DNA from: Lactarius indigo
Lineage: Eukaryota; Basidiomycota; Agaricomycetes; Russulales; Russulaceae
Assembly (NCBI GenBank): GCA_025766275.1
Contig: JAFKAC010000027.1
Coordinates: 434,001 to 498,000, forward strand
DNA length: 64,000 nt
Direction of reading: 5' to 3'
Shown: positions 5,375 to 56,136 of the stretch, piece by piece
How positions within the stretch are numbered: the stretch's first letter is position 1
Layout: every line of letters begins with the position of its first letter
The notes under the pieces: model-generated
Told to the model about the DNA's origin: nothing
Seen by the model: only the letters and a program-made list of their open reading frames with translations
The model's database searches: none
Made by a program: the position numbers and the translations under genes

Positions 5375-5379
5375 GTCAC
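5375..5379. other. target-site duplication of element 3 (left copy GTCAC)
   Basis: GTCAC at 5375-5379 is repeated at 20702-20706 on the other side of element 3. The flanking sequence then continues the solo LTR. Confidence 0.9.
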
Positions 5380-5510
5380 TGTCACGAACCTATAAACCTG
5401 GTCGTGACTCAAGGCGCTTAGGACCGGTCCGGATCGGTCCGGGCTTATGTCATCAACTTCCTAAAAAGGGAAATCCGAAATCGGAGTTTAAAATTTCGCT
5501 CTCCGACGAT

Positions 5511-5633
5511 CACGTGATGTGTCACGTGATTACTCTGTCTTTCCAAGTCACATGCATATCTGCACGTGTATCAATCAACGTTGATCGTTTATCGATCAAC
5601 GAAGATAATCAACCGAGTCACAAGGAACACGTG
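5511..5633 (+). promoter_or_regulatory. CACGTG cluster and inverted repeat in element 3 U3
   Basis: Four CACGTG boxes lie at 5511, 5523, 5563 and 5628. A perfect 9-bp inverted repeat (CGTTGATCG...CGATCAACG) spans 5579-5601. CACGTG is the core site of bHLH regulators; binding here is inferred. Confidence 0.55.
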
Positions 5634-5848
5634 TCCTAATCACGGGTTCCGCAGCTGCTGCGGAATCACGCCACTATGGCGCAATATGGCGTCATTGACT
5701 GCGGCGCAGTCGTACCATGCTTATCCTTTATTCTAATTGGACAGTATTAATAGCTTGTCTCTGGAATGTTCCAATCCGCAGTACTGCGCAGCACTCGTGG
5801 ACAGGCCCTAAGCCTGCCCTAAACCTACGCACAGACCACCCCCTGTAG

Positions 5849-5856
5849 TATATAAG
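5849..5856 (+). promoter_or_regulatory. TATA box of element 3
   Basis: TATATAAG lies 35 bp upstream of 5884, where the sequence complementary to the primer site begins. Transcription is therefore predicted to start near 5880-5885. Confidence 0.65.
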
Positions 5857-5871
5857 CTAGCGCAATCTATC

Positions 5872-5892
5872 GGACAGTCCCTCAGACTGTCC
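5872..5892 (+). promoter_or_regulatory. hairpin at the predicted transcript start; self-primer of element 3
   Basis: GGACAGTC (5872-5879), loop CCTCA, GACTGTCC (5885-5892) form a perfect 8-bp stem. The right arm, extended to AGACTGTCCA (5884-5893), is the exact complement of TGGACAGTCT at 6076-6085 just after the LTR. This fits Tf1-type self-priming, where the 5' end of the RNA anneals to its own primer site. Confidence 0.65.
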
Positions 5893-6075
5893 ACTTGTGA
5901 CATCTTCCCTCTTGCCTCTTAGTTCCTTCGAGTGCCCCACTTCTGTGCGCCACTATTTCCTTTGAGCCAAGACGCCTCCTCTTCGCCCCCTCCATCGTTC
6001 TCTCCGTCTCCATCTCGCCCGCCGTCGTCTTCAACCCTACCCCTCGCTGTCGAGTGACAGTGAGTTCACCACACT

Positions 6076-6085
6076 TGGACAGTCT
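6076..6085 (+). other. primer-binding site of element 3 (self-priming type)
   Basis: TGGACAGTCT lies 2 bp after the 5' LTR and is perfectly complementary to 5884-5893 in the R region of the same LTR. I did not recognise a tRNA 3' end complement. Confidence 0.65.
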
Positions 6086-6114
6086 CTTTAATAGACTGAC
6101 CTCGGGCTTTCTCA

Positions 6115-7365
6115 GTGGATTCAGACTACGACTTTTCGCAGTTTGGACATTGGGACGGAGATTCCTGCAGCTACCAGGAAGATAGTTACTTCCAGGGTAG
6201 CCCCCTCAATTCCATTTTTACTCGCTCTCCTGTCGCATCCACCTCTCGTCTCCCAGAACCCTCTTACATTCCTACTCCAAGCTTCTCCCCCCCTGTCATT
6301 CCTTCACCCGTCTTAGAAAGTCGGGAAGTCACCCCAGAGTTAGTTTATCCCGACCCTGAAGCCACCCCTCGTCCCTCCCCTCGTTCTGTCTCCCCAAGCA
6401 CCGCACAATTTTACGAAGAAGTACTCGAGATAGTAGACCTCAACGGAAACATAGTTGAGCTCTCTCGCACTCCTTCTCCTGAACCACGCGCCGAGTCTGC
6501 ACCTCCTGCTCGTCTCCCTACACCACGCCCCCCCCTTCCTTCCCACGCAACAACCACCCCTCGTGCCTCTCCTTCGCTACCTATTGATACTCCTCCGCGC
6601 CCTCCTTCTCCCTCGCCTCCTCCAGTTGCCTCACGCCCCCCCACCCCTGACTCCCCTATTAACTACGAGAGGGTAGCTGAACAAGCCCCTCCTGCCCCTC
6701 ACCCCAACCAGGAGAACTTTCCTCCTGCTGCTGCCGCCGCCTATCAAGCCCCCCCTTGCCTCCTTCACCAAGGAGAGCATCCCCATCTTTACATCGCTGT
6801 CATCACTCCTCAGGGAGAATCTTGGCGGCCCGCCTCTACTACACTTCGGGAACTGATCACCAGAGTTCCCCTCGCTACCACCCTTGCCAATTACCCCCCA
6901 GTTTTTCCCTCAGTCACCCCCTTTCGCCTCCTTTCCCCTCACGTCTACACCCTTTTCCCTCGCATCGTTGATCCCACTCAACACCCCAACTTCCCCCCTC
7001 TCTACATCTGTTCCAGGGCCGTCTACGACCTTCCCTCTCCAGACACCCCTTTTGGAACAATTCGCTACGACTTCAGGGAGGGCCTGCGGCGTGTTTTTGC
7101 CCCCCTTACTAACATCCATAGGGCCAGGTATATTGATTCCCTAGTTACCCTAGAGATTCAAGACTTCTTGGACGGGAGAATCGTGACCAGTTACGGACAT
7201 CTTCGTTTTGCTATCGACGGACAAATCTACGCTTACCACCAAGCCTACTTTTTTGAGGACTTAGTTCGCGCCTCCCCCCATTTACTCGCTTACTGTCTTA
7301 CCCCTCGTATCCCTGCCGATCCGTTCTCTTTCATTACTACCTTCCCCGACTCCCAACCCCTCTAG
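6115..7365 (+). CDS. leader ORF1 of element 3, proline-rich, no methionine
   Basis: Open for 416 codons (in frame from 6100, after TGA at 6097) to TAG at 7363-7365. There is no ATG anywhere in it, in any plus frame. The first start-like codon is GTG at 6115 in weak context (ctcaGTGG); the real start is unknown. Residues about 30-215 are rich in Pro and Ser (TPRPPLP, PPRPPSPSPPP). Residues about 220-416 look globular (LYIAVITPQGESW, FGTIRYDF, GHLRFAIDGQIYAY). No known domain is recognised. It is followed after 136 bp by ORF2. Non-AUG initiation is inferred from the strand-specific lack of ATG combined with the long open frame. A decayed gene would not show both. Confidence 0.6.
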   Translation: MDSDYDFSQFGHWDGDSCSYQEDSYFQGSPLNSIFTRSPVASTSRLPEPSYIPTPSFSPPVIPSPVLESREVTPELVYPDPEATPRPSPRSVSPSTAQFYEEVLEIVDLNGNIVELSRTPSPEPRAESAPPARLPTPRPPLPSHATTTPRASPSLPIDTPPRPPSPSPPPVASRPPTPDSPINYERVAEQAPPAPHPNQENFPPAAAAAYQAPPCLLHQGEHPHLYIAVITPQGESWRPASTTLRELITRVPLATTLANYPPVFPSVTPFRLLSPHVYTLFPRIVDPTQHPNFPPLYICSRAVYDLPSPDTPFGTIRYDFREGLRRVFAPLTNIHRARYIDSLVTLEIQDFLDGRIVTSYGHLRFAIDGQIYAYHQAYFFEDLVRASPHLLAYCLTPRIPADPFSFITTFPDSQPL

Positions 7366-7420
7366 AAGTCAGCAAAGGGGACGTACCTTTTTTTTGAACA
7401 AATAAAACTTGCCTTGATAA

Positions 7421-7502
7421 CTTAAAACGAGTGTTTTAAGCCTCAACGCAATAAGTAAGTAAAAACTACTATCTAAAAAGCCTTATACCGAGTGGTTATA
7501 AG
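7421..7502 (+). other. two GAGT-loop hairpins between ORF1 and ORF2
   Basis: CTTAAAAC-GAGT-GTTTTAAG (7421-7440) is a perfect 8-bp stem. CTTATACC-GAGT-GGTTATAAG (7482-7502) is a second stem with one bulge and the same GAGT loop, ending on the first base after the TAA that opens ORF2. The rest of 7366-7501 is AT-rich and ATG-free. Confidence 0.6.
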
Positions 7503-8527
7503 TGCCCCCAGAACGACTTACTGAAGGGCAAAGACTAGCGTTAGCCCAAGCTAACTTCGAGACTCACAGACAAAGACAACTCGAACGATACTACCCCCCT
7601 TCCTCTCTTAGCGACTTATCTACCGACCACTCTATTGATTGTTGGACAGACCCCCCTCTAGTTCTCTCGAAATTTCACCACAACTTTGCCTTTGGGGACA
7701 CTGACTCCGAAGAACTGCACGAGGCTTTCCTAGACACCCTACCCCTTCTAGTCGACGACGCCAACGAGCAACTCTTGTATTGGCACCTCTCAGGAAGTGT
7801 CAACAACAACAACAGACCAACAGATCAATACCTAGTCTGGACCAAGAGCGACTACCTCTGGTTCATCACCATTCCCCCCCGACGAAACCAAATCATCAGC
7901 AATATCCAGACCGGATATTCAGAATTCTACACCAATCGAGTCCTCCTAACATACAGAGAATTACAAATCGGATTTCACGAACTACGAGTCGTCCAGGTCG
8001 GCACCTCCCCACCTCGTCTAGTCATTGTAGAAGGAAGGGAATTAACTTACACCTTTGCCACTGAGACCTGGGAAACTACCTTCACCAACCCTGACCACAA
8101 TCGAGTTAACCCCCGAACCTTCCTTGAACCCCCTAGTACCCCAGAAGACCCTGAGCTAATAGAGCTCCTGCTAGCAAGAAGAAGACAACCTCTACGCCAT
8201 CGTCGCCCCTCCCTACTCGACCGACTAACAGCCCTTGAGCTTCCCCCCAGTGACTCCACCAGTGACCCTGAATCCCTCGCCACACCAGACGAAGACGTCT
8301 CTGTCCGAGACCGTGACGACTCTCTCCATAACGGAGACACTGACGAAGAAGGTGCAACAGTAGTGGATACTTGGAATAACCCAGTTAACACCAACCCTTG
8401 TTGGTGTTCAAACGAAGTCTGCACTTGTGGATTTAGACCAGTTACTCCCCCTACCCCTCCTAACGTCGTATTGTGGGCCCCCGGACTTAATTACTTACCG
8501 TACCGAGGAAGCGTAGACGATTTTTAG
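7502..8527 (+). CDS. leader ORF2 of element 3, no methionine
   Basis: 341 codons, opening immediately after TAA (7499-7501) with GTG at 7502 and ending TAG at 8525-8527, with no ATG in any plus frame. The N-terminal half has many aromatic residues (DYLWFITIPP, GYSEFYTNR). A segment at residues about 165-200 (LVIVEG...LTYTFATETWETTF) resembles a segment of the Gag N-terminal extension. The C-terminal part is acidic and Ser-rich, with a Cys cluster near the end (CWCSNEVCTCG). No known domain is recognised. The start context is weak for a eukaryotic start, so how it is translated is open: reinitiation, leaky scanning or internal entry. Confidence 0.6.
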   Translation: MPPERLTEGQRLALAQANFETHRQRQLERYYPPSSLSDLSTDHSIDCWTDPPLVLSKFHHNFAFGDTDSEELHEAFLDTLPLLVDDANEQLLYWHLSGSVNNNNRPTDQYLVWTKSDYLWFITIPPRRNQIISNIQTGYSEFYTNRVLLTYRELQIGFHELRVVQVGTSPPRLVIVEGRELTYTFATETWETTFTNPDHNRVNPRTFLEPPSTPEDPELIELLLARRRQPLRHRRPSLLDRLTALELPPSDSTSDPESLATPDEDVSVRDRDDSLHNGDTDEEGATVVDTWNNPVNTNPCWCSNEVCTCGFRPVTPPTPPNVVLWAPGLNYLPYRGSVDDF

Positions 8528-8544
8528 AAATTTTGTCGGGACCT

Positions 8545-8578
8545 ACTTTTGCTGAAAAGTGTTAAGTCGCAACCTTAA
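8545..8578 (+). other. hairpins between ORF2 and ORF3
   Basis: ACTTTT-GCTG-AAAAGT (8545-8560) is a perfect 6-bp stem, followed by TTAAG...CTTAA (8562-8578). Their place at the ORF2/ORF3 boundary repeats the arrangement at the ORF1/ORF2 boundary. Confidence 0.45.
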
Positions 8579-9267
8579 GCAAAAACCCGAGAAAATTACA
8601 CCTGTCAAACATCAACCTGGAACCCATCACAAATTGGGCAGTCACCCTGGCATCCTCTCAACGCACTACAAGAAGACATCACCACCGCCCCCAAGTAGAC
8701 ACCCGTCCTCTTACCTCTACAAACACTACCCCAGTAATTCCAAGACAAGCAGCTCGTACCCATCGACGAACCCCTAGTCAACTCCCTAGTATTAACCAAT
8801 CCAGCCCACACGAACCCGTCTTCCCTAGTATCCAAGACACCCCTAGACAACACACCACTAGCAGTGACGAAGCACAGTACCTCGAAACCCAACCAAGAGA
8901 AATCTACTGTCACCTTCCAGAAGCAATCCTCGTAACCAAAAGTTTACCCACACGAACCCCCAGAGAACTCGACGTTTTCAAGCGCCACTGTACCCTCCTC
9001 TATCAAAACCGACACACCAACGAAACCTTGTTCTTCGCCCAACCCCTCACTAGGGCGACTGAAATCACCACCAGCCCCTTGTATTTCCAAGACTTCTTGT
9101 GGAGAAGTAAAACCATCCTAACCCATTTTGGTATTTGGGAGGAATACCACTGGATCCGCCGACAACAAAGAACCAACCACCCAGACCGTGCCATCTTACT
9201 CCCTGCCTATAAAGTTTATTACCCTTGGAACATAGACAGTTGGACTGTCACCCGCCTGCAGAATTAG
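8566..9267 (+). CDS. leader ORF3 of element 3, no methionine, in frame with gag
   Basis: 233 codons from the base after TAA (8563-8565) to TAG at 9265-9267, with no ATG in any plus frame. The first half is basic and Thr/Pro-rich (RRHHHRPQ). The second half is globular-looking and rich in aromatics (LYFQDFLWRSK, EEYHWIRRQQR), ending VYYPWNIDSWTVTRLQN, which resembles the tryptophan motif of the Gag extension. It lies in the same frame as gag and is separated from its ATG only by TAG TGT. Stop readthrough would fuse it to Gag, and termination-reinitiation is also possible. It has no recognised domain and no obvious start codon. Confidence 0.55.
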   Translation, partial: VATLSKNPRKLHLSNINLEPITNWAVTLASSQRTTRRHHHRPQVDTRPLTSTNTTPVIPRQAARTHRRTPSQLPSINQSSPHEPVFPSIQDTPRQHTTSSDEAQYLETQPREIYCHLPEAILVTKSLPTRTPRELDVFKRHCTLLYQNRHTNETLFFAQPLTRATEITTSPLYFQDFLWRSKTILTHFGIWEEYHWIRRQQRTNHPDRAILLPAYKVYYPWNIDSWTVTRLQN

Positions 9268-9270
9268 TGT

Positions 9271-10821
9271 ATGAATACACAACGACCTCTTACACCAGAA
9301 GAAAAAGCCCACGTTCCAGTATACTTTTTCGACCCCTATTTTTCCCTTACCGACAACCTTTACTACGCCAAGTGGAAAGAAGAAGACATATCCAGCCCTA
9401 CAGGAAAACACCCGTGGACAATAGTTGCTACCCAACATCAAATCGTTTTCCAGGACCTCAAAGAAGCCTTTCCAGGTATCGAAAAGGTTGAAAACGTAAA
9501 CTACAACGCCCTACACGCCATCTTCAAAGGAAAGAACGTCCGTTGGAACTTTGTAAACGAGCAGTGGATCTACCTAAACAACAAACCGGTCCACTTCAAT
9601 ACACCTAGTGAATCCGACGATTCGAAAAGTGATACGGAAGAAGTATCACAAATCCTTGATACTACTACAAGGAAACTTTCTGGTCTACTCTCCCAAGTAA
9701 CCTCCCGACCCTCGACGCCCCAGACTTCCCCTAGTACCTCCGGCCCAAGTCGCTTCCCTGCAACAGTTCCACCACATCGACTTCCGTCACCACCCCTAAC
9801 TGTTCAAGCCTCTTCCTCGGCACCCCCCTTATCCGTTCCCCCTGTACCCACCGCAATGGCAGCCCCTGCACCTGCAAAGATCTTAGGCGCAGCGCCCGAG
9901 CCCTTTGATGGTAAACCCAACCATGCTGAAGCTTTTTGGAACAACCTAGCCAACTACTTCCATCTAAACCAAGATATCTTTAATTCCGAAGATAAAAAGA
10001 TATCTACTGCTCTCACCTACTTCAAGGTGGGGACCTCAGCCGGAGAATGGGCTCAAGATAGACAAAAAAAAGCCTTGAACCCAACCGGAGGAGCGGCAAT
10101 ATCCTTTGGCACCTGGGCACAATTCAAAATCGACTTTGATGCACACTTCATTCCTGGACACACTGCCATGGAATCCACCAACAAAATGTACTCTCTAAAG
10201 ATGGGAACCCGACCTTTCAACGAATGGTTCCAAGAATGGTCAACCCATGCTACACGAAGTGGTGCAAATGAACAAACCAAGATGTATGCGTTCCGACAAG
10301 CTATCCCAACAGCTCTAAACATGAAGTTGCTTGGCATATCCCCTATCCCTACCACCTTCGACACCCTTGTTGAGAAAGCAAGAGAATTTGATCGCGCATA
10401 TCGAATTTATGCTGGTCACGCCATTAACCAGTTCAACAAAACCCATAAGCCCACCACAGGACGAGCCGTCCTAGCAGAGGACGATAGCGTAAATGTTAAC
10501 GCCTCCTCATCTCGTACTGCCAAACCAAGGGCCAAGCTTACAAAAGAAGAGCGAGAGTATCGCTTCAAGAATAAACTCTGCCTGTACTGTGGCAAGTCAG
10601 GCCACGTACTTAAAGAATGTCACGCCAAGACGGCAGCCATGAAGGCCAAAGGAGGCCAATCCAACAACAACGCTAGGGCGCGCAGCGCCTTTGTTGATGA
10701 ATCGAGTCAGGAGGAAGCACCTGCTGACCACCCAGCAAACATTGGAGCGGTATATCGAGAGATACTCCCTTTCGACCCGGACGCACGTCCGCGTTCGGTG
10801 CCTATTAATGAGGATTTTTAG
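9271..10821 (+). CDS. Gag of element 3
   Basis: 516 residues from ATG at 9271 to TAG at 10819-10821. Residues about 1-195 are an N-terminal extension with a motif RWNFVNEQW (near residue 91). The Ty3-type capsid part starts near residue 196 (MAAPAPAKILG, PEPFDGKPNHAEAFWNNL) and a CCHC zinc knuckle follows (CLYCGKSGHVLKEC, near residue 435). ATG 9271 has a weak context (T at -3, A at +4). The next ATG in any plus frame is 9856, in frame, with G at -3 and G at +4. Two isoforms, a long and a short Gag, are therefore likely. The frame ends in a T-run (GAT TTT TAG), where a -1 slip would enter pol. Confidence 0.88.
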   Translation: MNTQRPLTPEEKAHVPVYFFDPYFSLTDNLYYAKWKEEDISSPTGKHPWTIVATQHQIVFQDLKEAFPGIEKVENVNYNALHAIFKGKNVRWNFVNEQWIYLNNKPVHFNTPSESDDSKSDTEEVSQILDTTTRKLSGLLSQVTSRPSTPQTSPSTSGPSRFPATVPPHRLPSPPLTVQASSSAPPLSVPPVPTAMAAPAPAKILGAAPEPFDGKPNHAEAFWNNLANYFHLNQDIFNSEDKKISTALTYFKVGTSAGEWAQDRQKKALNPTGGAAISFGTWAQFKIDFDAHFIPGHTAMESTNKMYSLKMGTRPFNEWFQEWSTHATRSGANEQTKMYAFRQAIPTALNMKLLGISPIPTTFDTLVEKAREFDRAYRIYAGHAINQFNKTHKPTTGRAVLAEDDSVNVNASSSRTAKPRAKLTKEEREYRFKNKLCLYCGKSGHVLKECHAKTAAMKAKGGQSNNNARARSAFVDESSQEEAPADHPANIGAVYREILPFDPDARPRSVPINEDF

Positions 10822-13800
10822 GCTCTTCCATCGTAGCACTGTCGATTGGAAGTATTCGTGCCAGCAGCGTTGTACACAGCCTTTCCCTACTAGAGACGCT
10901 CGGAGCCGAGCATGTACCTGTAGAAACAATTCGGAATAGGAGAGCTCCTTCAATTGTTCTCAGAGTTACACTAGTAGGAAAGAAGTCTGGCAAAGAAATC
11001 AGTGCCTGTGCCCTGTTGGACAGCGGCGCGGAGGGCATCATCGTGGATGATGGGTTTGCACGAGCAAACAACCTAACAATGAGGACACTAATTAAACCCT
11101 TACCAGTTAGAAATGTGGATGGGTCTCCCAACAAGACGGGATCTGTTAGGTATACTACGATCCAAAGACTACGGATCAGGACTTCTGATGACAACTACCA
11201 CGACGAAACTGTGGAACTCTATGCAACTACTCTAGGGGAGCACGATATAATCTTAGGAACAGATTGGCTCCAAGCACATAACCCTGAAATTGATTGGCAT
11301 CAACCAAAAATAGCCTTCACACGATGCCCAAAAACCTGTACCCTGTCCTCCTCAGCAGTTGTTATCTCTTCGAAAATACCACAAACGTGACATACGACTA
11401 TTAACATCCTCGAACTTGACCCTGACCAAGAAACCTGTCTCCCCACAAATGAAGAAAGTGAACCCCTAGAACCTGCCTTTACCCAAGATGCCTGCGAACC
11501 CTGGCTGTGGATCCACAGCTTCAGCAAATATGACCACCTTGCAATCCGAGCAAAAATTACCACAAGCACCAAGATAGCAGCACGCACTGCACCCAAGCCT
11601 TCCACCGACCACATTCCAAGTCATTTCCAACGTTACACCAAAGTATTCAGCGAAATCGCGTCCCACCGACTTCCCCAACACCAACCTTGGGATCACGCGA
11701 TTGATATCAAGCCTGGAGCCACTATGAAGAATTGTGGCATTTATCGACTTACACCAAAGGAATCTGATGCCCTCAAGGAGTATATCTCTGAACACCTGAA
11801 AAAAGGATACATTCGACCATCTAAATCACCCATGGCTTCCCCCTTCTTTTTTGTCGACAAAAAGGATGGCAAACTTCGACCTGTGCAAGACTATCGCGCC
11901 CTCAATGATATAACCATTAAGAACGCAGCGCCCCTTCCCCTTATCCCTGAACTTATCGACAAACTCCATGGCGCGCGCTACTTCACCAAGCTGGATATTC
12001 GCTGGGGTTACAACAATATCCGCATTCGTGAAGGCGATGAATATAAGGCCGCTTTCAAAACATCCTTAGGCCTCTTCGAGCCAACTGTAATGACTTTTGG
12101 CCTCTGCAACGCCCCTGCCACTTTCCAAACATTCATGAATCAAATCTTCGAGTCCTTAATTGACGGTGGACACGTAGTGGTCTACCTCGATGACATCTTG
12201 ATCTTCACAGAAGAAATTTCCTCACTCACAGCATTGACGCACGATGTGCTCCAACGACTGGAACGCCACGACCTCTACCTGAAACCTGAAAAGTGTACCT
12301 TTGCGCAAACCTCAGTCGAATACCTCGGAATCGTCATTTCCGATGGCCAAATTTCTATGGACCCTGCAAAGGTTGCGGGTATTACTCAATGGCCCACTCC
12401 ACGCACTGTTAAACAAGTGCAGGCCTTCCTGGGCTTTTGCAATTTCTATCGACGCTTCATTAAAGACTACTCCACCATTGCCCGCCCATTGTTCGACCTA
12501 ACCAAGAAAGGCGCCCCCTTTTCTTGGGGTACTGCGGCGGAAAGCGCTTTCCGCACCCTGATTAAATGCTTCACCGAGGCCCCTGTCCTTGCCCTGCCTG
12601 ACCACTCTAAGCCCTTCCGCCTCATCACCGATGCAAGCGATTTTGCTACTGGTGCTATTCTTGAACAACCGGATGCCTTGCAACGTTGGCACCCCGTCGC
12701 CTTCCTTTCCAAATCCCTCCTTCCTGCTGAGCGTCACTACGAAATCTGCGACAAGGAACTTCTTGCCATCGTCCATGCCTTGCATGCTTTCCGCCACTAC
12801 CTGGAAGGGCGGGACGACGTTACTGAAATCTGGTCCGACCATGGCAACCTTGTCTATTTCACCACGAAACAGAAGCTTTCCCGCCGGCAGGCCCGCTGGG
12901 CCTTATTCCTCTCTCGCTTCCAGTTCATCATCATCCACAAACCTGGAACGCAGAACAAATCTGATGCCCTGTCTCGGCGTCCAGATCATAAAAAGGGGAT
13001 AGCGGATGATGATGAAAAGCGAGTACTCCTGGACACCAAGTATTTTTCCATCAATGCAGTACAAAGAACTGCAGTAACCATCCAAGGAGATACCACCCTC
13101 CGGCAACGTATCAAAAACACCCAGACCTATGACACGGAAGTCAGCATGGCCCTAGAATCCCTTCTAAAAAATGGCCCTCGATCCTTAGCTAGAGGACTAG
13201 AAGAGTGGAACTTGGAAGACGGCATTATCTTATTCAAAGGACAAGTCTATGTTCCAAAAGATGACAACCTACGAAGAGACATTGTTAAAACATACCACGA
13301 CCACATCGCCACAGGACACCCTGGGCGATGGAAAACCTATGAGTTAATATCCCGAGACTTCTGGTGGCCAGGCATATCAACCTTTGTTAAAACCTATGTT
13401 GATGGTTGCGCCACATGCCAAGCTACTAAAGTCAAACCACGCACCCAAGTACCCCTACAACCAAACACAATACCTGAAGAAATATGGGGGACCATCACAA
13501 TGGACTTCATCACCGACCTCCCCCTATCCCACAACTACGATTCACTATTTGTAGTGGTTGATCGACTCAGCAAAGCCATAGTCATTTCCCCTTGTAACAA
13601 AACCATCACGGCAGACGAAACAGCCCAACTCTACCTTGAAAACGTCTGGAGACGTACTGGCCTACCTCGACAAGTCATTTCTGACAGAAGCCCCCAATTT
13701 GCATCAAAGGTCATGCAAGAAATTTGGAACAAACTTGGAGTTAAATCTACACTATCTACAGCTTTCCACCCACAAACCGATGGAGAAACTGAACGTGTCA

Positions 13801-14582
13801 ACCAAGAACTTGAACAATACCTTTGCGTCTTCTGCAACTTCCAACAAAATAACTGGGTGGATCTAATCCCATTCATGGAATTTGCACACAATGCCCGACA
13901 ACACAGCGCAACTCACAAATCACCCTTCGAGGTTTGGTATGGATACAAACCAGAGTTCATTCCCCCTACCCATTTCACCACCAAAATACCTGCAGCCGAG
14001 GAAAGAGTAAATGCACTAAATCAAATCCGCTCCGAAGTTACCGCAGCCCTCAAGGTAGCAGCGGAAGTCATGAGAAGGTCAAAAACACCTACCCCCTCTC
14101 ATGAATTCAAGACAGGCGATTTAGTCTGGCTGGAAGGAACCAACATCCATACTACCCACCCCAAAGCTAAACTCGCCCCACGACGCCACGGCCCCTTTAA
14201 GGTCCTGTCCACCTGGGGAGTCAATTGCAAACTCCAACTTCCAAAAACATGGCGCATTCACCCAGTCTTCCACAACTCCCTGATCTCCCCGTATAAAGAA
14301 AACACTACACATGGACCCAACTTCACCAGACCGCCCCCTGAAATCATCCAAGGGGAAGACGAACACTACGAAGTGGAGAAGGTCCTGCAATCTAAGGTAT
14401 CGCCTAACAAGAAGGGCATACTCTACTTGATCAAGTGGAAGGGGTACCCCGACTCTGAAAACTCCTGGCTCCCCTCCTCCCAAATGACCCATGCGCAAGA
14501 CCTTGTTAGTCAATTTCACAAGGCCAACCCCAGTGCCCCTAAACCAAAGTCCACTAGTGCTAGTGGAATAGCACGACATTAA
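10812..14582 (+). pseudogene. Pol of element 3, one premature stop
   Basis: The pol frame opens at 10812, 10 bp before the gag stop and in the -1 frame relative to gag. Domains in order: aspartic protease (LLDSGAEG, Asp at 11019), reverse transcriptase (YLDD at 12183-12194), RNase H (ITDASDFATG, CDKELLAIVHAL), integrase zinc region (HDHIATGHPG, CATCQ), integrase core (MDFITDLPL near 13501, TAFHPQTDGETER near 13762), and a chromodomain (HYEVEKV, LIKWKGYPDSENSW) at about 14366-14475. A single in-frame TGA at 11388-11390 falls between protease and reverse transcriptase. The frame stays open after it, and a CGA-to-TGA change is the simplest cause. Otherwise the gene looks intact. Confidence 0.9.
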
Positions 14583-14593
14583 AAAGGGGATAC
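14580..14593 (+). other. polypurine tract of element 3
   Basis: The run taaaaaggggatac directly precedes the 3' LTR and would prime plus-strand DNA synthesis. Confidence 0.6.
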
Positions 14594-15021
14594 TGTCACA
14601 AACCTATAAACCTGGTCGTGACTCAAGGCGCTTAGGACCGGTCCGGATCGGTCCGGGCTTATGTCATCAACTTCCTAAAAAGGGAAATCCGAAATCGGAG
14701 TTTGAATTTCGCTCTCTGACGATCACGTGATGTGTCACGTGATTACTCTGTCTTTCCAAGTCACATGCATATCTGCACGTGTATCAATCAACGTTGATCG
14801 TTTATCGATCAACGAAGATAATCAACCGAGTCACAAGGAACACGTGTCCTAATCACGGGTTCCGCAGCTGCTGCGGAATCACGCCACTATGGCGCAATAT
14901 GGCGTCATTGACTGCGGCGCAGTCGTACCATGCTTATCCTTTATTCTAATTGGACAGTATTAATAGCTTGTCTCTGGAATGTTCCAATCCGCAGTACTGC
15001 GCAGCACTCGTGGACAGGCCC

Positions 15022-15449
15022 TGTTGAGACGCGACTATTAAAGTCATATGTCTCGTGGGATCTGATTGAGTCAGCCCACATACTATATACGGTATCTGTC
15101 CCTTATGGACTTATGGACACTCCGGACTCATACGGACCGCTTTTGTTTATCTTTATTGTTAAGACCTATATATGGTTCTTATTGTTCTTTCTATTGTTAA
15201 GATACCGGTATTGTCTGCTTTAGGCAGTTATTGTTCTCTGCCATCCAATGGTGTTTCTCCCTCTGGCGCACAGACCACCTGTATTGTGTTTGAGTCACCA
15301 GTGCGCACAGACCATTATTAGCTAAGCGTCCTGTATAAAAGGACTGCTGTTTTCGCCCTTACACTTCAGAGTTCCCTTCACCTCTGAAGTTAACTTGTCC
15401 TACTAGCTGTCCAAGCTTATCCCTTGCTTGTTAGTTCTGCACTTCAACA
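15022..15449 (+). repeat. 5' LTR of Copia element
   Basis: TGTTGAGACGCG...ACTTCAACA, with TGTTGA/TCAACA inverted ends typical of Copia. A TATA-like tataaaagg lies near 15334. Confidence 0.93.
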
Positions 15450-15467
15450 GGTTATGGGCCCTGACGC
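15450..15467 (+). other. Copia primer-binding site (initiator tRNA-Met half)
   Basis: ggttatgggccctgacgc starts right after the LTR. Its reverse complement contains gggcccataacc, the anticodon loop (CAT) of initiator tRNA-Met, as used by Drosophila copia and relatives. Confidence 0.75.
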
Positions 15468-16455
15468 CTAATAACTAACTTGCTTTATCAGATCTACTTG
15501 TGTCACCTTGCTCTCTCAGCCGACCACATACTTCTTGTCGTCACCCACATTTTCAGTGAGCATCCTCTATCCTCTTTCGACACACCTTTCTTTCTCGTCC
15601 ACCATGACTTCGGTCATGTGCCATTTTGGCTAGCCTCCTAAGGAGGTTCTCATGAGAGGTTTTACATAACCTCAAATTCCTCTGTGCGCACTACTATATC
15701 TTCATTACCCAGTCTTCGTCTGGAAGTGCTTTCATAGGCCAATAGGGGAAGACCCTTGCGGCTATAGGCCTCTCTAATGGTTGGGTGATACTCGGTTAAT
15801 ACCTGGGTCACTTTAAGGGGTGTGAAGGCCTGGTTAATAGTCAAACCCAGAAGTCCTTCCCTCTGACACAACTAGGAGACGCTACTTAATACTATACACA
15901 GTAGCTATGACTAGACCTCTGCTAGGAGAAGTATTCGCTCCCTTTGTGCAGGATTCGCTGCATAGCACGTATCACTAGTCTAGTTACTTAGTACCAAGAC
16001 CCTTAATGGTCTGTTCTAGAGACTCCACAGACGGAAGATTCAGTTGTTATGGGAGTTGATCCCTATCACTGTTTCTTGAACTCGCTGTTGGCTCCTCTCT
16101 AGGGTACTACCCTTTACTATAGATCCTTAGTAGCCCCAGCATCAAGGCTGTAAGGCTGAGGGATACAGAGACTTAGTAGTCCTTCGCCGGACCAAAAGCT
16201 CCTATTCCGTCGAAGCCAACAAAGCTGTTGCATGACTACTACCCATAGTAACATTTGGGCTTTGTGGGTCTTAGTATAAGGCAGCCATCAGTACAATGAT
16301 TCCACTACATAATTATATCCAAGTCGCACACACTTGAGGCATGACACCACATGTGTTATGGAGTATAGCGCTCCTATGGCTGGACAATTACTTTCTCTAC
16401 CAAGATCTGAGCTGGTTCTGACTGCTCCTCGGAACCAGATTCACAAACATCTCAA
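15468..16455 (+). other. Copia 5' untranslated region
   Basis: About 1 kb between the primer site and gag with no coding frame of note. ATG triplets are frequent here (for example near 15454, 15604 and 15616), in clear contrast to the ATG-free leader of element 3. Confidence 0.6.
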
Positions 16456-16790
16456 ATGTCTTTCCACCTTGTCTTCCCTCCTTCCGTCACCCTCGCCAAG
16501 TTGGATGGCACCAACTGGCAGACTTGGTCTGCCACCTTCACCTCCCTCATGCTGATGAATGGGTGCAGCAGGCACCTCACGCATGGTGCTCCTGCTTCTG
16601 TGCCCCAACATCCCCCTCTCGCAGCAGGTGCTGTGGGGCCCACTGGCCCTACAGATGAGGGACTCGCCATCCTTGCCCTCTGGGCAAAACAAGAAGAGGT
16701 CATCACTGGCCTTCTATTTTTATCAGTGACAACGGAGGTCCTATCTGGTATTCACTCCTCCCACATCTTCCCAACCGTCCCTGTCATGGG
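16456..16790 (+). pseudogene. Copia Gag N-terminal remnant
   Basis: ATG at 16456 opens a Gag start with the typical LDGTNWQTWSATFTSLM segment and continues to about 16770. The frame then loses homology at the internal deletion and shifts relative to pol (gag frame 1, pol frame 3). No zinc knuckle or protease remains. Confidence 0.75.
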
Positions 16791-19652
16791 TGTGAACTTG
16801 GCAAGTCCACCCGCAAACCCTTTCCTCCCTCCCAGAAGCGTGCACAAGAATCCCTTGAACTTGTGCACAGTGACCTTGTTGGCCCGCTACAGAGTAACTC
16901 TATCCAGGGCAACAAATACTTTGCCACCTTCATAGATGACTTCTCAAAAGCAGCAGTTGTCATCCCTATGAAGTCTAAAGACGAGTTCACAGGTGCCTTC
17001 CTACACTACAAGGCATGGGCTGAAAAACAACAAAATAAGCCCATTAAAACCCTGCACTCCGATCGTGGTGGCGAGTATGTCAATAATGTCCTAAAAGACA
17101 TTCTTCTGGAGGAAGGGATTGAGCATAAGCTTACGATGCCTTATTCTCCACAACAGAACGGGAGAGCCGAGCGGTTTAACCGCACCATCATGGAAAAAGG
17201 CACCAGCATGCTCCATCATGCAGGTCTTAGCCTCGGCTTTTGGGAACAAGCAGTTCAGACTGCAGTGCACATCTACAATCGCACTCCCACCCGTTCTAAT
17301 GAGTGGAAAACTCCGCTGGAGCTCTGGGATGGTACAGTCCCAGATGTCTCTTACTTTAGAGTATTTGGCTGCAAAGCCTACTATCATGTACCTGAACACA
17401 ACCGGCGCAAATTGGATCCTAAATCAAAGGAAGCCGTGTTTGTGGGCTATGAACCCAACTCGAAGGGTTACAAACTCTGGGATAGACATAGCCGGTGCTT
17501 CGTCTCTTCACGAGATGTTACATTTGACGAAGCCGCCTTCCCATCCCTGAGTGACCTGACTAGTCACTCCAAACAACCCATTACTTCTCCTGTGTCCGGC
17601 GAACCTGCTAAAGGGGCTGCTGTTGCCGGTGAGATATTCTTTGTAGTGCCTAGTCAGCCTACGCCAGCTGTTGCCCCTGCGGCACCTCAGACACCAACCT
17701 TTATCTTACCACCTGTCCAGGTGCCCGCAGTACCAGTACAACAGCCTAGCACACCCCCCAACACCTCTCCAAACCCAGCCGACCAGACAATCTATCATAC
17801 TCCACCCTCCCAAGCCCCTGCTCCCACAAATCCTAGGCGCCCTCGCACACGTTCGCAAGGGAGACCGCCTGTAGTAACTGCCCCAATCCCTGCCCCCAAC
17901 TTCAATAGGGACATCTCTCCTCCTAGGGAAACACCTAGATCTCCGAGGAATGGGCTAGTTACTTCACCCCCTCGCCCAAGGCGTGGGACAAGGGTACGAT
18001 TCACAAATCCTCGCTACTTCACAGAGGAGAACGATGAATTTGTGCCTGGGAGCAGTAGACTGGGTATGCTGGACTTGCTGAACGCTGCCGAGGTTCCTGG
18101 CTACAAGGACCCACAGACCTTTAAGCAAGCCATGGAGTCTGATCAAGCTGTCGATTGGCTTGAAGCGTGCCAGTATGAACTGGACGCTCTTGACAAGCTT
18201 GCTGTCTGGAGGCTTGAACCCCTTCCTGAAGGAAGGAAGGTGGTCAAGTGTAAATGGGTATTTAAAAAGAAGGCGGATGGACGCTTTCGTGCTAGGCTAG
18301 TGGCAAAAGGATTCACCCAACTAGAGGGGGTGGATTTTGACGAAACTTTCTCCCCAGTTGCCCGCTTCGAGTCCTTACGACTCCTTCTTGCGCTGGCTAC
18401 GCTTGAAGACTGGCATATTCACCAGATGGATGTCAAATCGGCATTCCTTCATGGGGAACTGGAGGAAGAAATTTATATGGAGCAACCAGTCGGTTTCGTC
18501 ACAGCTGGCTCCGAACACTTAGTGTGTCGGCTACAGAAGGCCCTTTATGGCCTGAAACAAGCTTCCCGCGCATGGAACGTGCAGTTCCATGGGGTCTTAG
18601 TTGACCTAGGCTTTACGCGGACGTACTCTGATGCAGGAGTATACGTGTATCATCTTCAAGAGGGGGGTGATACACTTTTCGTGATCTTATATGTAGATGA
18701 CATCACTATACTCGGAAGTTCCTTATCAAAGATTAAAGATCTGAAGGCTTCTCTATCTAGTCGATATGAGATGACCGATCTGGGAGAGATCCAGTCCTAT
18801 CTTGGTGTTAACATCACCAGAGATCGTGCTAATCGCACCATGGAAATCAACCAGTCAGACTACATCCGCGATGTGGTGGAACGTTTTGGAATGTCTGATT
18901 CCAATCCAGTATATACCCCTCTTCCCTCTGGCGCCGAGGCACACTTGATCAAGTACACAGATCAGGCCTCTACTTCTGAAATTAAGAAGTATCAACAGAT
19001 AATCGGGTCTCTGCTATATGCGCAGATTGGAAGCAGACCTGATATTTCCTTCGCTGTTGCGCGCCTTAGCCAATTTGCTTCCAACCCCTCACCTCAGCAT
19101 TTACGCCTAGCCAAGTATGTCCTAGCTTATCTTAATAGCACCAAGGACTACTCGTTACGCTATGCTGGAGGGAATGGCAATGGTGGTGAAGGCCTTCATG
19201 GCTACTGCGACGCTTCCTGGGGAGATCAGGAAGAAAAGCACTCCACTTCAGGTTTTGTCTACCTGCTTGCAAATGGAGCCATTTCATGGTGTACCAGAAA
19301 GCAAAAGACAATTGCGCAGTCAACCACTGAGGCAGAATACATGAGCCTCTCAGATGCCTCTAATCAGGCTCAGTGGTACGCCACTTTCCTTGGAGAACTG
19401 GGGTATGAGGTATCCTCCCCCATTCCTCTGCACTGTGACAACAAGGGTGCTGTGGACTTAGCTCTCAACCCTGTCACTGGGAGACGTTCAAAACACATCC
19501 TGATCAAGCACCATGTAGTCAGGGAATACGTAGAAAACAAGGTCATAAGCCTGATACGTACACCCACAGGGGAAATGGTTGCAGATGGACTCACTAAGTC
19601 ACTGCCCAGAGAACCCTTTGAAAAAATGGTTGCTGATCTAGGAATGGTGTAA
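16791..19652 (+). CDS. Copia Pol (integrase core, reverse transcriptase, RNase H)
   Basis: The frame is open from 16791 (CELGKSTRKPF) to TAA at 19650-19652; the first ATG is 16863. Domains: integrase core (ELVHSDLVGPL near 16857, FIDDFSKAAVV, HSDRGGEYVN, SPQQNGRAERFNR), the Copia-type C-terminal part (FRVFGCKAYYHVP, VFVGYEPNSKGYKLW), a Pro-rich linker at about 17640-18000, reverse transcriptase (KCKWVFKKK, YVDD at 18690-18701) and RNase H (YCDASWGDQ, TTEAEYMSLSDA). The integrase zinc domain and everything upstream are gone. The rest is undamaged, consistent with a recent deletion. Confidence 0.92.
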   Translation, partial: CELGKSTRKPFPPSQKRAQESLELVHSDLVGPLQSNSIQGNKYFATFIDDFSKAAVVIPMKSKDEFTGAFLHYKAWAEKQQNKPIKTLHSDRGGEYVNNVLKDILLEEGIEHKLTMPYSPQQNGRAERFNRTIMEKGTSMLHHAGLSLGFWEQAVQTAVHIYNRTPTRSNEWKTPLELWDGTVPDVSYFRVFGCKAYYHVPEHNRRKLDPKSKEAVFVGYEPNSKGYKLWDRHSRCFVSSRDVTFDEAAFPSLSDLTSHSKQPITSPVSGEPAKGAAVAGEIFFVVPSQPTPAVAPAAPQTPTFILPPVQVPAVPVQQPSTPPNTSPNPADQTIYHTPPSQAPAPTNPRRPRTRSQGRPPVVTAPIPAPNFNRDISPPRETPRSPRNGLVTSPPRPRRGTRVRFTNPRYFTEENDEFVPGSSRLGMLDLLNAAEVPGYKDPQTFKQAMESDQAVDWLEACQYELDALDKLAVWRLEPLPEGRKVVKCKWVFKKKADGRFRARLVAKGFTQLEGVDFDETFSPVARFESLRLLLALATLEDWHIHQMDVKSAFLHGELEEEIYMEQPVGFVTAGSEHLVCRLQKALYGLKQASRAWNVQFHGVLVDLGFTRTYSDAGVYVYHLQEGGDTLFVILYVDDITILGSSLSKIKDLKASLSSRYEMTDLGEIQSYLGVNITRDRANRTMEINQSDYIRDVVERFGMSDSNPVYTPLPSGAEAHLIKYTDQASTSEIKKYQQIIGSLLYAQIGSRPDISFAVARLSQFASNPSPQHLRLAKYVLAYLNSTKDYSLRYAGGNGNGGEGLHGYCDASWGDQEEKHSTSGFVYLLANGAISWCTRKQKTIAQSTTEAEYMSLSDASNQAQWYATFLGELGYEVSSPIPLHCDNKGAVDLALNPVTGRRSKHILIKHHVVREYVENKVISLIRTPTGEMVADGLTKSLPREPFEKMVADLGMV

Positions 19653-20003
19653 AGATGGGTTCTAGGACGTCGAATTATTGTGTATACTTGCAATAGACCT
19701 CCTAGTTTAATAGCTAAGAAAAACCCTTCTTAAAGAACTGAAGAAGTTGGACCTGTTCCATCTTATCTCCTAGCTCACAGCTCTTCAAAAAGTAGTTCTT
19801 CAGAACTACATTATCCTCATAGAGCAGTGCATGAAGACCTCCAAAAAGTTGTCCTTTATCAGGACTTCTGCGTACATAGATTCTTTCTAAACCAGAGAAT
19901 CGAAACATTTCTCATAGTAACAGTAAAGCAATAAAGTGCCCTGCCAAGGCACTTTCACTCAATGCTTACACCACTCTTGTGGACTGTCTCTATCATGGAG
20001 GGA
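19653..20003 (+). other. Copia 3' untranslated region and polypurine tract
   Basis: No gene is seen. It ends in atggaggga directly before the 3' LTR, which serves as the polypurine tract. Confidence 0.6.
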
Positions 20004-20431
20004 TGTTGAGACGCGACTATTAAAGTCATATGTCTCGTGGGATCTGATTGAGTCAGCCCACATACTATATACGGTATCTGTCCCTTATGGACTTATGGAC
20101 ACTCCGGACTCATACGGACCGCTTTTGTTTATCTTTATTGTTAAGACCTATATATGGTTCTTATTGTTCTTTCTATTATTAAGATACCGGTATTGTCTGC
20201 TTTAGGCAGTTATTGTTCTCTGCCATCCAATGGTGTTTCTCCCTCTGGCGCACAGACCACCTGTATTGTGTTTGAGTCACCAGTGCGCACAGACCATTAT
20301 TAGCTAAGCGTCCTGTATAAAAGGACTGCTGTTTTCGCCCTTACACTTCAGAGTTCCCTTCACCTCTGAAGTTAACTTGTCCTACTAGCTGTCCAAGCTT
20401 ATCCCTTGCTTGTTAGTTCTGCGCTTCAACA
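20004..20431 (+). repeat. 3' LTR of Copia element
   Basis: A near-identical 428-bp copy of 15022-15449, ending GCTTCAACA before the GGCCC duplication. Confidence 0.93.
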
Positions 20432-21137
20432 GGCCCTAAGCCTGCCCTAAACCTACGCACAGACCACCCCCTGTAGTATATAAGCTAGCGCAATCTATCG
20501 GACAGTCCCTCAGACTGTCCACTTGTGACATCTTCCCTCTTGCCTCTTAGTTCCTTCGAGTGCCCCACTTCTGTGCGCCACTATTTCCTTTGAGCCAAGA
20601 CGCCTCCTCTTCGCCCCCTCCGTCGTTCTCTCCGTCTCCATCTCGCCCGCCGTCGTCTTCAACCCTACCCCTCGCTGTCGAGTGACAGTGAGTTCACCAC
20701 AGTCACGACGTTAGCTCGACTTGAGCTCTATAGAGGCGGTAACAACTTAGCGAATACTCTGAAGACGCGGAGGTCCAGACGTGACGATTATCTTGAAGAC
20801 ACGAAGGTCCAAGCGTAGGCTATGGTGAACACTCGAAGGTGCACTCTCTTAGAAAGACGCGATAGGAAGTAGAGAGAGAAAGGAGGAAACAAGTGACGAT
20901 TCAAGAAGACCAAGATGGCATATCTTGGTCTTCGCAAGTCGGTTTAAATACACAAACCAGCAGGCTTAGAAGCGCTGCTATGAGTCACAGTAAGTAGCGT
21001 CCAACGTATCGCAGAAACATCGCAAACCCTAATACTACTAGTACCTGTACTAGTATCGAGTCACCAAGGCACCGCTCAGTCAGCTATCGTACGCAATCTC
21101 CTATCGTACTGTCGTATCACCGTAGACAAGTCCGCAA

Positions 21138-31999: not shown

Positions 32000-34007
32000 A
32001 GATCTTGAAGTATAAGATCTTTTACTTCGTCCGTACTATTGGCCACCTGTGTGAGCCATTCCTTGGCCTGTTCTCCCGCCGTTTTTGTGCTTGCTGCATT
32101 GATTTGGGGTGCAGGCGTTACGCTGGGCGCTGGCGACACATATCCAGGCAGTGAAGGCGCGTACTGCGATACGGGTCCTTGAGGATATCCCGCGGTTTCG
32201 GTCATGCGGCTACTGGATGGAACAGCCTGCCATTGTTGTTGTGCGCGTGGATATGGGCAATTTCGTGAGAGGTGGCCGGGAGCGTGACAGTTATAGCAAA
32301 GGACGTTCCTTAAGTCTTTTCGAGATCCCCCTCTCCCTCGTCCTCTAGTTCCTGGCCCGCCTCTCAGCGGGAACGGCGGTGTAGGCCAGTCGTGGTGTGG
32401 TAGTTTGTTGAAGTCGATGTCTTCGGACCCCGCGAGCCTTACCCTTGCACGGTCAGCCGAGGTGTCCATTGCCCACGGGTTAGTTTGTGGTAGGTTCTGC
32501 GGGAGTGTCCATCCCGCATTGCCACCTTGCTTCTTTGGTTGTGTTGTCGTATTCTTGTATTCGTTGAGTCGTGCTTTGAGATGGATGTAGTTCTTCTGCC
32601 GCTTAAGGACGGCCCGTTTCCAGTCGTCGAACGTGACGGGATCGTCGAACTGGAACGCGTTCTTGAACAGTTCCTTGGGCAGACCCGACGTAAAGAGGTC
32701 AATGGTTTGGGGTTCATTGAGGCGGTAGTGAGCTTTCCGTGCAAGCTGTTCAAAGTCATTGACGTACTTGTCAATGTCTTCTCCCGTCATTTTGTAACCT
32801 TTTCGTAGTATGGCTTGGGCCTGTTCTCTCTCTAGCGTGTTTTCGAACCTCTGACTGAATCCATCGGCTACAGCGTCCCATAGGTCGCGCGTGTAGGGAC
32901 TTATTCCCTGTTGTATTTGCCTGTTGAGCCAGTTCAGGAAGGATAGTACCCATTCGCTGACTGCTCCGCCTTTGATGTAGGATAGAAACAGAAGACATCT
33001 TCTGTAGTCGTTGCGCATGATAGGGGCGTCCAAATTCATGCCCCAGTAGACATGCCACTGCGTTAGGAATTGGTCTACTTTGAGTCTGTCTCCGTCAAAA
33101 ATGGAAGGTGGCTCGCCGGTTAATTTTTCGTTATGAGGTCCTCCCCCTCCGGCATCTCCACCTCCTCCTCTGCCACCGCCTCCTCCGCCTCCTGGCGGTC
33201 CCGCAGGTGGCATTCTTGGTGGTTCGGTTCTTCGTAGATCAAACGGGACGCCTCCTCCTGGTGGCGGTGGCGGGTCTCCGCCCGGTCCTCCCGTTCCCGG
33301 CAGGAGGTCTAGTGCGGGTCGTCGTCCGGACGGGGGTCTCCTCGGTCTGACCCTATTGCTCGGAAGATAGCTGCGTCGTCTGCAGTCATTCGTACGCCGG
33401 TTTCTGGGTTAATGGGCATGAGGATTTCTCGTGCTTCTTCTCGTATTGCGCGCGCTTCTTCGATCGCGACCTCTTCCATCGCTCTAGTTATTGTTGCCAT
33501 GATGGCTGGTGATCGAATGTGAATTGGCTCTGGTTCGGTAATGTATGCGGACTCAGCTCGTTCGATGAGGAGCTCTTGTATCGCTCCTCCGCTAGTCTCT
33601 GTTTGGTTTGGTTCTCGTCCTTCACTTTCGTCTTGGCTTTCTTCTTCTGATATTACTTCTCCAGTGGAGTGTTCTCGTACTTGTCCGTCGATGGGGCCCC
33701 AATCTGCTCGGCTGTTGAGCTCTCGGGCGTCGATATCGCACTGGTATCTAGGTCCTGCTGGTCGTATAACGTCCCACTGGGAATCTATGGGATTCCACGC
33801 AACCTCCGTCCAACACAAGTGGTCGAAGTTGAACTCAACTGGTCGGAACCTACTAGGTCCGTTGAACTCCACAAAATATCCGGTTTCTTCTTGTCTTTCC
33901 CTCCAACTAGCGGCTTGTAGAAAGCGTGTGGGGACGTTACGCTCTCCTCTTCTTGGGAGCGAGTATGGACGGAAGTTTGTCCACTGATCTCTTGTTGTTG
34001 CGGCCAC
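31969..34007 (-). pseudogene. Gag of element 4, frameshifted
   Basis: The first block, 33309-34007, opens with GTG (sense caccGTGG) and encodes the N-terminal extension up to RGDP. A one-base loss near 33335 relative to element A ends it early. The second block, 31969-33213, carries the Gly/Pro-rich linker, capsid part and CCHC knuckle. The slippery heptamer GGGTTTT is at 31981-31987 (minus). No sense-strand ATG occurs from the start of the LTR (34522) down to codon 170 of the extension (33500). Confidence 0.85.
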
Positions 34008-56117: not shown

Positions 56118-56119
56118 TT

Positions 56120-56130: not shown

Positions 56131-56136
56131 AACACC

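Follow-up and report, generated by a model that had tools for sequence, protein, structure and literature searches.

An AUG-free stretch of 3.4 kb ahead of gag in a Lactarius indigo chromovirus holds three conserved reading frames and putative start codons assembled by splicing

Introduction

Rice tungro bacilliform virus (RTBV) and other badnaviruses of the family Caulimoviridae are described as carrying consecutive long open reading frames (ORFs) without internal AUG ahead of the main polyprotein, with a weak and then a stronger AUG; in the published accounts consulted, RTBV ORF I itself has no AUG and starts at AUU, at about 10%. Here we analyze a similar arrangement in a 64,000-nt stretch of DNA from the basidiomycete Lactarius indigo (hereafter, the window; GenBank assembly GCA_025766275.1, contig JAFKAC010000027.1, positions 434,001 to 498,000, forward strand), in an element that, by its repeats and domains, is a Ty3/gypsy chromovirus with long terminal repeats (LTRs), gag and pol. 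Compared with the AUG-free coding region of about 0.9 kb described for RTBV, this LTR retrotransposon has about 3.4 kb and three ORFs before gag, and two of its ORF starts lie on predicted splice acceptors.

Several other described systems share individual features with the element. With Tf1 and Tj1 it has in common a Ty3/gypsy pol with a chromodomain and a primer binding site (PBS) complementary to the predicted RNA 5' end, but the coding capacity of Tj1, as outlined in PMC4600332, consists of Gag, protease, reverse transcriptase and integrase, whereas the element described here adds three frames before gag and has its PBS within a predicted intron. Sobemovirus ORFx and other viral ORFs started at CUG resemble the third of these frames in being, as described, AUG-less, conserved as proteins, coding from the CUG onward and preceded by indels, although ORFx is a single overlapping ORF of an RNA virus. 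Coupled termination-reinitiation of the victorivirus or UAAUG type, as summarized in the literature consulted, recalls the junction between the third frame and gag, where stop and start overlap or lie within 3 nt of each other. Finally, LTR retrotransposons with ORFs or domains beyond gag and pol have been reported (PMC7264820, PMC5408684, PMC9289625); compared by description only, these are not presented as AUG-free in the portions of those reports consulted.

Results

Depletion of ATG ahead of gag

A sequence-only reading of the window had claimed that the plus strand carries no ATG from the predicted RNA start at about 5884 to the gag ATG at 9271, that the next ATG lies at 9856, and that CAT occurs about 33 times in 6074-9270. 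Direct counting bears out each of these statements: ATG 9271 is the only one in 5884-9273, with the preceding ATG at 5766 and the following one at 9856, and the exact number of CAT is 33. No other ATG-free run in the window, on the plus or the minus strand, is as long as the one from ATG 5766 to ATG 9271 (3505 nt; runners-up, 922 nt on the plus and 1033 nt on the minus strand), and among all 64 triplets, a comparison suggested by the same reading, ATG is the rarest in 5884-9273, with a count of 1 (GGT, the next-rarest, has 9). In 1000 dinucleotide-preserving shuffles of 5885-9270, 17.7 ATG were expected (standard deviation 3.6, minimum 8) vs 0 observed, and CAT was close to expectation (36 vs 33.9), confirming that composition is insufficient as an explanation and that the depletion is strand-specific. 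No depletion was detected in this region for the near-cognates CTG, GTG, TTG, ACG, ATA, ATC, ATT and AAG (for CTG, 49 vs 48.7 expected; for GTG, 26 vs 20.8), so AUG alone appears to have been purged; AGG is slightly low (23 vs 31.8 expected).

Three methionine-free proteins under purifying selection

The term "leader", previously applied to these 3.4 kb, is wrong, as most of the region consists of three conserved reading frames (Table 1). Measured from stop to stop, the frames follow each other at 6100-7365 (421 codons), 7502-8527 (341 codons) and 8566-9267 (233 codons), and the ORFs are separated by gaps of 136 nt and 89 nt. Because ATG is absent in every frame, the three predicted proteins are methionine-free apart from the initiator. 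Ratios of nonsynonymous to synonymous substitution rates (dN/dS) were calculated against the window copy, which is thus shared by all comparisons, using only the open frames from 36 copy stretches of the same genome (22, 14 and 19 copies for ORF1, ORF2 and ORF3, respectively; broken frames excluded). The values were 0.06-0.30 for ORF1 (21 comparisons, with a single value above 0.18; dS reaching about 1.1), 0.22-0.42 for ORF2 (13 comparisons; dS up to about 1.7) and 0.03-0.27 for ORF3 (18 comparisons; dS up to about 2.3). ORF1, ORF2 and ORF3 are therefore under purifying selection and conserved as proteins.

With protein identity and codon usage preserved by shuffling, 13.4 ATG were expected over the three ORFs and the N-terminal part of gag (ORF1, 3.7; ORF2, 4.5; ORF3, 1.1; gag up to 9855, 4.1), and none is present in any of these parts, although for ORF3 taken singly the depletion falls short of significance (P 0.30). 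In the same test, ATG exceeds expectation in the remainder of gag (20 vs 16.5) and in pol (52 vs 41.7). Likewise, NAY codons that precede a G end in T in 0 of 38 cases in ORF1-3 and the N-terminal part of gag, vs 45 of 71 in the remaining gag and pol. Out-of-frame ATG is thus avoided at synonymous sites, and the loss of ATG is the product of selection.

Protein searches yielded 35 relatives of ORF1, 28 of ORF2 and 14 of ORF3, with 29-61% identity, among Lactarius gene models and metagenome-type sources. Outside the Lactarius models, internal methionines number 10 in 4983 residues for ORF1 (13 proteins), 2 in 7676 for ORF2 (24 proteins) and 0 in 3163 for ORF3 (14 proteins), so that, at the level of protein at which it can be seen, methionine avoidance is common to distant relatives. 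The 22 Lactarius-labelled models in the ORF1 list hold 72 internal methionines in 10462 residues, over half of them in a single model, P0003, which has 42 including the first. None of the ORF2 relatives sought in viral_contigs and genome_contigs was confirmed. No Pfam match was found at E <= 0.01 for any of the three proteins, and no PDB fold match at E <= 0.001 for the models of ORF2 and ORF3 (predicted local distance difference test scores, pLDDT, 73 and 74). An origin of ORF2 and ORF3 as duplicated domains was rejected (hhalign probability 10%), and an apparent likeness between ORF2 and ORF1 is not meaningful, the match being confined to a gapped alignment tail from fused Lactarius models.

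Copies in the Lactarius indigo genome

We searched the 90.3-Mb assembly (291 contigs) for further copies. At the DNA level, 6074-9270 has at least 45 matches (40 of 174 candidates scored); at the protein level, matches were found at 104 places for ORF1, 121 for ORF2 and 125 for ORF3, with pieces counted apart. The copies fall into subfamilies A and B, which are about 71% identical at the DNA level across ORF1 and ORF2. Of the 36 stretches compared, 30 cover the whole region and 9 of the 30 are open in all three frames. These nine, L009 (the copy in the window), L011, L012, L014, L018, L019, L031, L036 and L038, carry 0, 0, 0, 1, 0, 0, 2, 1 and 0 ATG, respectively, from the predicted RNA start up to the gag ATG. 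Other copies of the family, which might have shown ATG at the neutral rate, thus keep 0-2 before gag as long as their frames are open. L038 has none despite 936 substitutions relative to the window copy. When the substitutions observed between the window copy and six relatives were placed at random, means of 12-21 ATG resulted, vs 0, 0, 0, 1, 2 and 1 in the relatives themselves. The strong selection against upstream AUG proposed in the earlier reading is accordingly backed by shuffles, the synonymous test and simulated substitutions alike. The 21 broken full-span copies carry 2 to 62 ATG over the aligned stretch, gag ATGs included; some are as free of ATG as intact copies, and the oldest have dozens.

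In decayed frames, internal stops are mostly TGA, and the CG of hairpin loops described below goes to CA or TG, as expected from loss of methylated CpG. Among more divergent copies, L045 has few ATG, whereas L046 and L047 have many, several at shared places, with the ORF1 frame open; this lineage may have lost AUG avoidance, or may have undergone parallel CpG decay. Two copies, L031 and L039, are mosaic, matching the window copy at about 71% as far as position 8158 and at 94% and 92%, respectively, from about 8400-8630 on, which suggests likely recombination between subfamilies.

Candidate start codons at predicted splice junctions

Conservation between subfamilies A and B begins at GTG 6115 for ORF1, GTG 7502 for ORF2 and CTG 8617 for ORF3. 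In the copies displayed, both GTG have a pyrimidine at -3 and an A at -1, and these starts, read as AG/TG (slash, predicted junction), are possible 3' splice sites. Each is preceded at a distance of about 50 nt by a candidate donor (Table 1) and, with A before both donors and TG after both acceptors, intron removal would yield A/TG: the intron 1 junction, A6059 with TG6116-6117, and the intron 2 junction, A7454 with TG7503-7504, both read ATG. Donor and acceptor signals, the A before the donor and the TG after the acceptor are found at spliceosomal spacing, together with a branch-like signal that is unclear in intron 2. The predicted lengths suit a basidiomycete, given the mean intron of 63 bp reported for Cryptococcus neoformans (PMC8476143).

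This arrangement recurs throughout the family. All 56 copies covering the site have the intron 1 donor GTGAGT and its preceding A (search with a 14-base motif and up to two mismatches; the six donor bases exact in all 56), and 54 of them have [CT]AG/TG 55-56 nt downstream together with CTGAC, the exceptions being L022 and L025. For intron 2, A^GTAAGT with AAG/TG 47-53 nt farther on is found in 55 of the 56 covering copies (exception, L025), and nearly all copies of subfamily B have two overlapping donors, each preceded by A. Across 16 aligned copies, donor, A and AG/TG are constant (one donor base at 0.94) and CTGAC is constant or nearly so; the pyrimidine tract, by contrast, differs among copies, as does the central part of intron 2. 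When the genome was scanned for the unspliced form with a pattern that itself requires GTAAGT, all 97 rows returned (two places listed twice) had A preceding the donor.

Gene models provide a further comparison. The ORF1 start region is present in 19 of 24 Lactarius-labelled proteins, and 12 of the 19 read ..SDM/SDY, which is encoded by AGT GAC A joined to TG (10 of 14 under a narrower pattern); 9 reach the ORF2 donor, and 6 of these read N[AT]TM/PP.

ORF3 differs. Inspection by eye revealed no in-frame AG/TG in either subfamily, and a split AUG was rejected for this frame. Judging by its context (A at -3, G at +4 in the copies displayed), ORF3 would best start at CUG 8617; the region has four CTGs in strong context, this one included (3.0 expected), so that the choice depends on conservation and on the indels immediately upstream.

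A proposed splice-gated polycistronic RNA

We favor, as the more probable account on balance, a model in which the 3.4 kb belong to a splice-gated polycistronic RNA, where removal of introns of about 50 nt assembles the AUG of ORF1 or ORF2 and unspliced RNA is scanned to gag. That AUG avoidance serves scanning to gag, a feature shared by this model and by initiation at GUG, is very likely. The unspliced RNA, AUG-free before gag, would be both genome and gag mRNA, with ribosomes scanning to the weak AUG 9271; leaky scanning past this codon would lead to the strong AUG 9856 and a short Gag, which would explain why 9272-9855 is free of ATG as well. RNA without intron 1 would yield the ORF1 product and, having lost the PBS, would be incapable of self-priming. 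On RNA from which intron 2 alone had been removed, ribosomes would scan across ORF1 to reach ORF2, a route that would account for the avoidance of AUG within ORF1; ORF3 would be made by the few ribosomes that initiate at CUG 8617.

Hairpins with the loop CGAGUG over the splice sites might hold splicing back. Three hairpins with this loop are predicted in the window copy (Table 1), of which HP0 covers a donor and HP2 an acceptor, and another precedes ORF3 in subfamily B; the stems differ and the loop is mostly shared. Among hairpins matching the search pattern, the loop is GAGT in 43 of 51 for HP2 and 41 of 52 for HP1, and AAGT in the remainder. The HP2 stem pair 7488-7495 changes jointly from C-G to T-A between subfamilies (CTTAAACC/GGTTTTAAG in A, CTTAAATC/GATTTAAG in B), and the Lactarius peptides NRV and SSD, as far as protein can tell, fit the same loop. 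As a guess, these hairpins might be a splicing brake or a protein-binding site.

Alternative explanations

Several observations weigh against splice-built starts. Splicing of both introns is predicted from the DNA, and GTRAGT, although found only at the two donor places in 5885-10900, is expected there about twice by chance according to our estimate, so only the position of the donors is informative. Intron 2 ends in AAG, a rarer acceptor than the usual CAG or TAG, and appears to have no clear branch site, a feature expected of fungal introns. Although RNA spliced only at intron 2 would keep the PBS, scans of the own genome returned 0 matches to copies without intron 1 or intron 2, which counts against the model. 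Of the 19 gene models, 7 differ at the ORF1 start (L in P0001 and P0035, V in P0042, NTLM in P0019, SSDN in P0033, skipped in P0023 and P0032), as do 3 of the 9 at the ORF2 junction (M-Q in P0009, I in P0022 and P0042); moreover, the Lactarius models may be ab initio predictions, and some fuse ORF1 to ORF2 through doubtful, improbable introns. ORF3 and the second and third families described below lack AG/TG at their starts, so a non-AUG start is needed regardless. This last point leads to the main rival, which was our first choice until AG/TG and the donors were recognized and which we still rate as a real, if clearly less probable, possibility: RTBV-like leaky scanning on unspliced RNA, with inefficient non-AUG initiation of ORF1 and ORF2 at GUG and of ORF3 at CUG, most ribosomes reaching gag. 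The precedent of RTBV, as described, the avoidance of AUG in all frames, which fits scanning, the first codons GTG, GTG and CTG in the copies displayed, and the perfect context of the ORF3 CTG and of the GTG of the second and third families all agree with it. So do 6 of 7 JGI relatives of ORF2 (P0038, P0041, P0046, P0047, P0056 and P0061), which begin with V at the start point, provided, as we infer, that these models keep the literal first residue; the seventh, P0045, begins upstream of that point with M, which speaks against the splice-built start. However, the GUGs of ORF1 and ORF2 have a pyrimidine at -3 and A at -1 and show no CUG or ACG variants in the copies displayed, as would be the case for an AG acceptor; the two donors and the A before each are left unexplained; and the M in 12 of 19 Lactarius models is what the junction predicts.

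The remaining alternatives are far less probable. Ribosomes could restart from frame to frame by reinitiation or internal entry, assisted by CGAGUG hairpins, and reach gag by coupled termination-reinitiation. We regard such a chain as improbable, even though stop and start at the ORF3/gag junction do lie within a few nt, the gag ATG following the ORF3 stop by 3 nt in subfamily A (TAG TGT ATG) and overlapping it in B (ATGA), and hairpins with covarying stems precede ORF2 and, in B, ORF3. Reinitiation needs no AUG avoidance within ORFs in all three frames, would have to bridge the gaps between frames, and, according to the part of PMC5902531 consulted, is usually impossible after long ORFs without special help; it may nonetheless contribute at gag. 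Still more remote is the notion that the entire region is one intron, with donor 6060 joined to the acceptor CAG 9259-9261 and gag translated from the short RNA so produced: in most A and B copies displayed, a pyrimidine-rich stretch followed by CAG does precede gag, but AUG in the removed part would face no selection, and 3.2 kb is long for a fungal intron relative to the C. neoformans mean given above. Composition, chance or host mutation bias, for which only the C-richness of the region could be adduced, is practically eliminated, and indeed refuted, by the shuffles, the synonymous test and the simulated substitutions, all of which expect many ATG; moreover, decayed copies do gain ATG.

Architecture of the element and its neighborhood

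The RNA start at about 5884 is predicted from the TATA-like box and from the 10-nt complementarity to the PBS, an arrangement of the Tf1 self-priming type in which the RNA end is itself a prediction; the AGACTGTCCA at this site is identical in 16 of the 17 aligned copies, those that cover it. Retrotrans_gag in gag scores above the Pfam cut-off and a zinc knuckle below it; in 11391-14579, Pfam detects, in order, RVT_1, RT_RNaseH, Integrase_H2C2, rve, SH3_Tf2-1 and Chromo. An in-frame stop at 11388-11390 interrupts the pol frame, the preceding part of which (10812-11390) overlaps the end of gag in another frame; this stop may reflect decay of the window copy or be programmed.

Table 1. Features of the element and of two further AUG-free regions in the window
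Feature	Position	Strand	Remarks
5' LTR	5378..6073	+	direct repeats with 14592-15004 and 20429-20701; outer start approximate
TATA-like box	5849..5856	+	TATATAAG; by eye
Predicted RNA 5' end	5884..5893	+	AGACTGTCCA; complementary to PBS, Tf1-like self-priming
Hairpin HP0	6043..6064	+	9-bp stem, loop C[GAGT]G; 3' arm contains intron 1 donor
Predicted intron 1	6060..6115	+	56 nt; donor GTGAGT, CTGAC, acceptor TTTCTCAG
PBS	6076..6085	+	TGGACAGTCT; 10-nt complement of 5884-5893; within predicted intron 1
ORF1	6116..7365	+	416 codons including split start; no internal ATG in any frame
Hairpin HP1	7421..7440	+	loop C[GAGT]G
Predicted intron 2	7455..7502	+	48 nt; donor GTAAGT, acceptor TTATAAG
Hairpin HP2	7482..7502	+	loop C[GAGT]G; 3' arm ends in intron 2 acceptor
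ORF2	7503..8527	+	341 codons including split start; CWC..C.C motif near C-terminus conserved
ORF3	8617..9267	+	216 codons; CTG 8617 (AACCTGG) to TAG 9265-9267
gag	9271..10821	+	ATG 9271 in weak context TGTATGA; Retrotrans_gag domain
Second gag-frame ATG	9856..9858	+	in frame; strong context GCAATGG
pol	11391..14582	+	reverse transcriptase, RNase H, integrase, chromodomain
3' LTR	14592..20701	+	14592-15004 and 20429-20701, interrupted by Copia-type element at about 15005-20428
Third family, AUG-free gag extension	33501..34007	-	GTG 34007 to just before ATG 33500
Second family, AUG-free region	55881..56652	+	predicted RNA start to gag ATG 56653 (772 nt); gag extension from GTG 56137 (ACCGTGG)

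Two further retroelement families in the window, the second at 55.6-63.5 kb on the plus strand and the third at about 26.7-34.5 kb on the minus strand, also have AUG-free regions before gag, which in the third extends from 34531 down to the gag ATG 33500. Their in-frame gag extensions, compared over 169 codons (dN 0.056, dS 0.63, ratio 0.09), begin near a GTG in ACCGTGG and end at the ATG in ATCATGG. The second family has a self-priming complement of 55881-55891 with 56120-56130, where the RNA 5' end is again predicted. For these two families, non-AUG initiation is the better reading, and non-AUG initiation and splice-built starts may exist side by side.

One chromovirus family is represented by two opposite copies, 21203-26732 and 57213-62742, which are likely recent insertions because they are 99% complementary over 5530 nt; the minus copy seems to be split by a related third-family element. 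Three DUF6535 genes lie on the plus strand between retroelements (38345-40720, 44208-46535 and 53199-55319) and are 65-90% alike over their matching parts. The presence of such genes, like that of ORF relatives in Lactarius, agrees with a basidiomycete source.

Discussion

The comparison with RTBV made in the sequence-only reading holds for the logic of scanning, the long upstream ORFs being AUG-free in all frames, but probably not for the way ORF1 and ORF2 begin: the ORF1 GTG is conserved, yet its context is poor and it coincides with a predicted AG acceptor, and both frames would most simply start at an AUG that splicing would create rather than by leaky non-AUG initiation. Among the literature matches listed, neither a comparable AUG-free retrotransposon nor a naturally occurring start codon built by splicing stood out; the phrase "split start codon" has reportedly been used in one paper on a synthetic ribozyme. 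If the model is true, this would be, to our knowledge, the longest AUG-free coding stretch known to be scanned, against about 0.9 kb in RTBV.

Taken together, the observations permit a joint reading to which we would give about even chances. Excision of intron 1 would write the AUG of ORF1 and at the same time remove the PBS, turning genome into messenger, and AUG would have been purged so that gag is the only place at which the genome RNA is read. The three frames would be old genes, with about 30-60% protein identity to elements of Lactarius and metagenomes, and the CGAGUG hairpins would set the frequency of the switch.

If the splice-gated model is correct, an LTR retrotransposon would obtain four products from one RNA, with start codons that exist only after splicing; whether an RNA serves as genome or as messenger would be decided by that same splicing event. 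The element would then provide a clean test system for the scanning distance of fungal ribosomes. ORF1, ORF2 and ORF3 add three protein families that gene finders relying on ATG are prone to miss, and strand-specific ATG deserts offer a simple scan for further cases.

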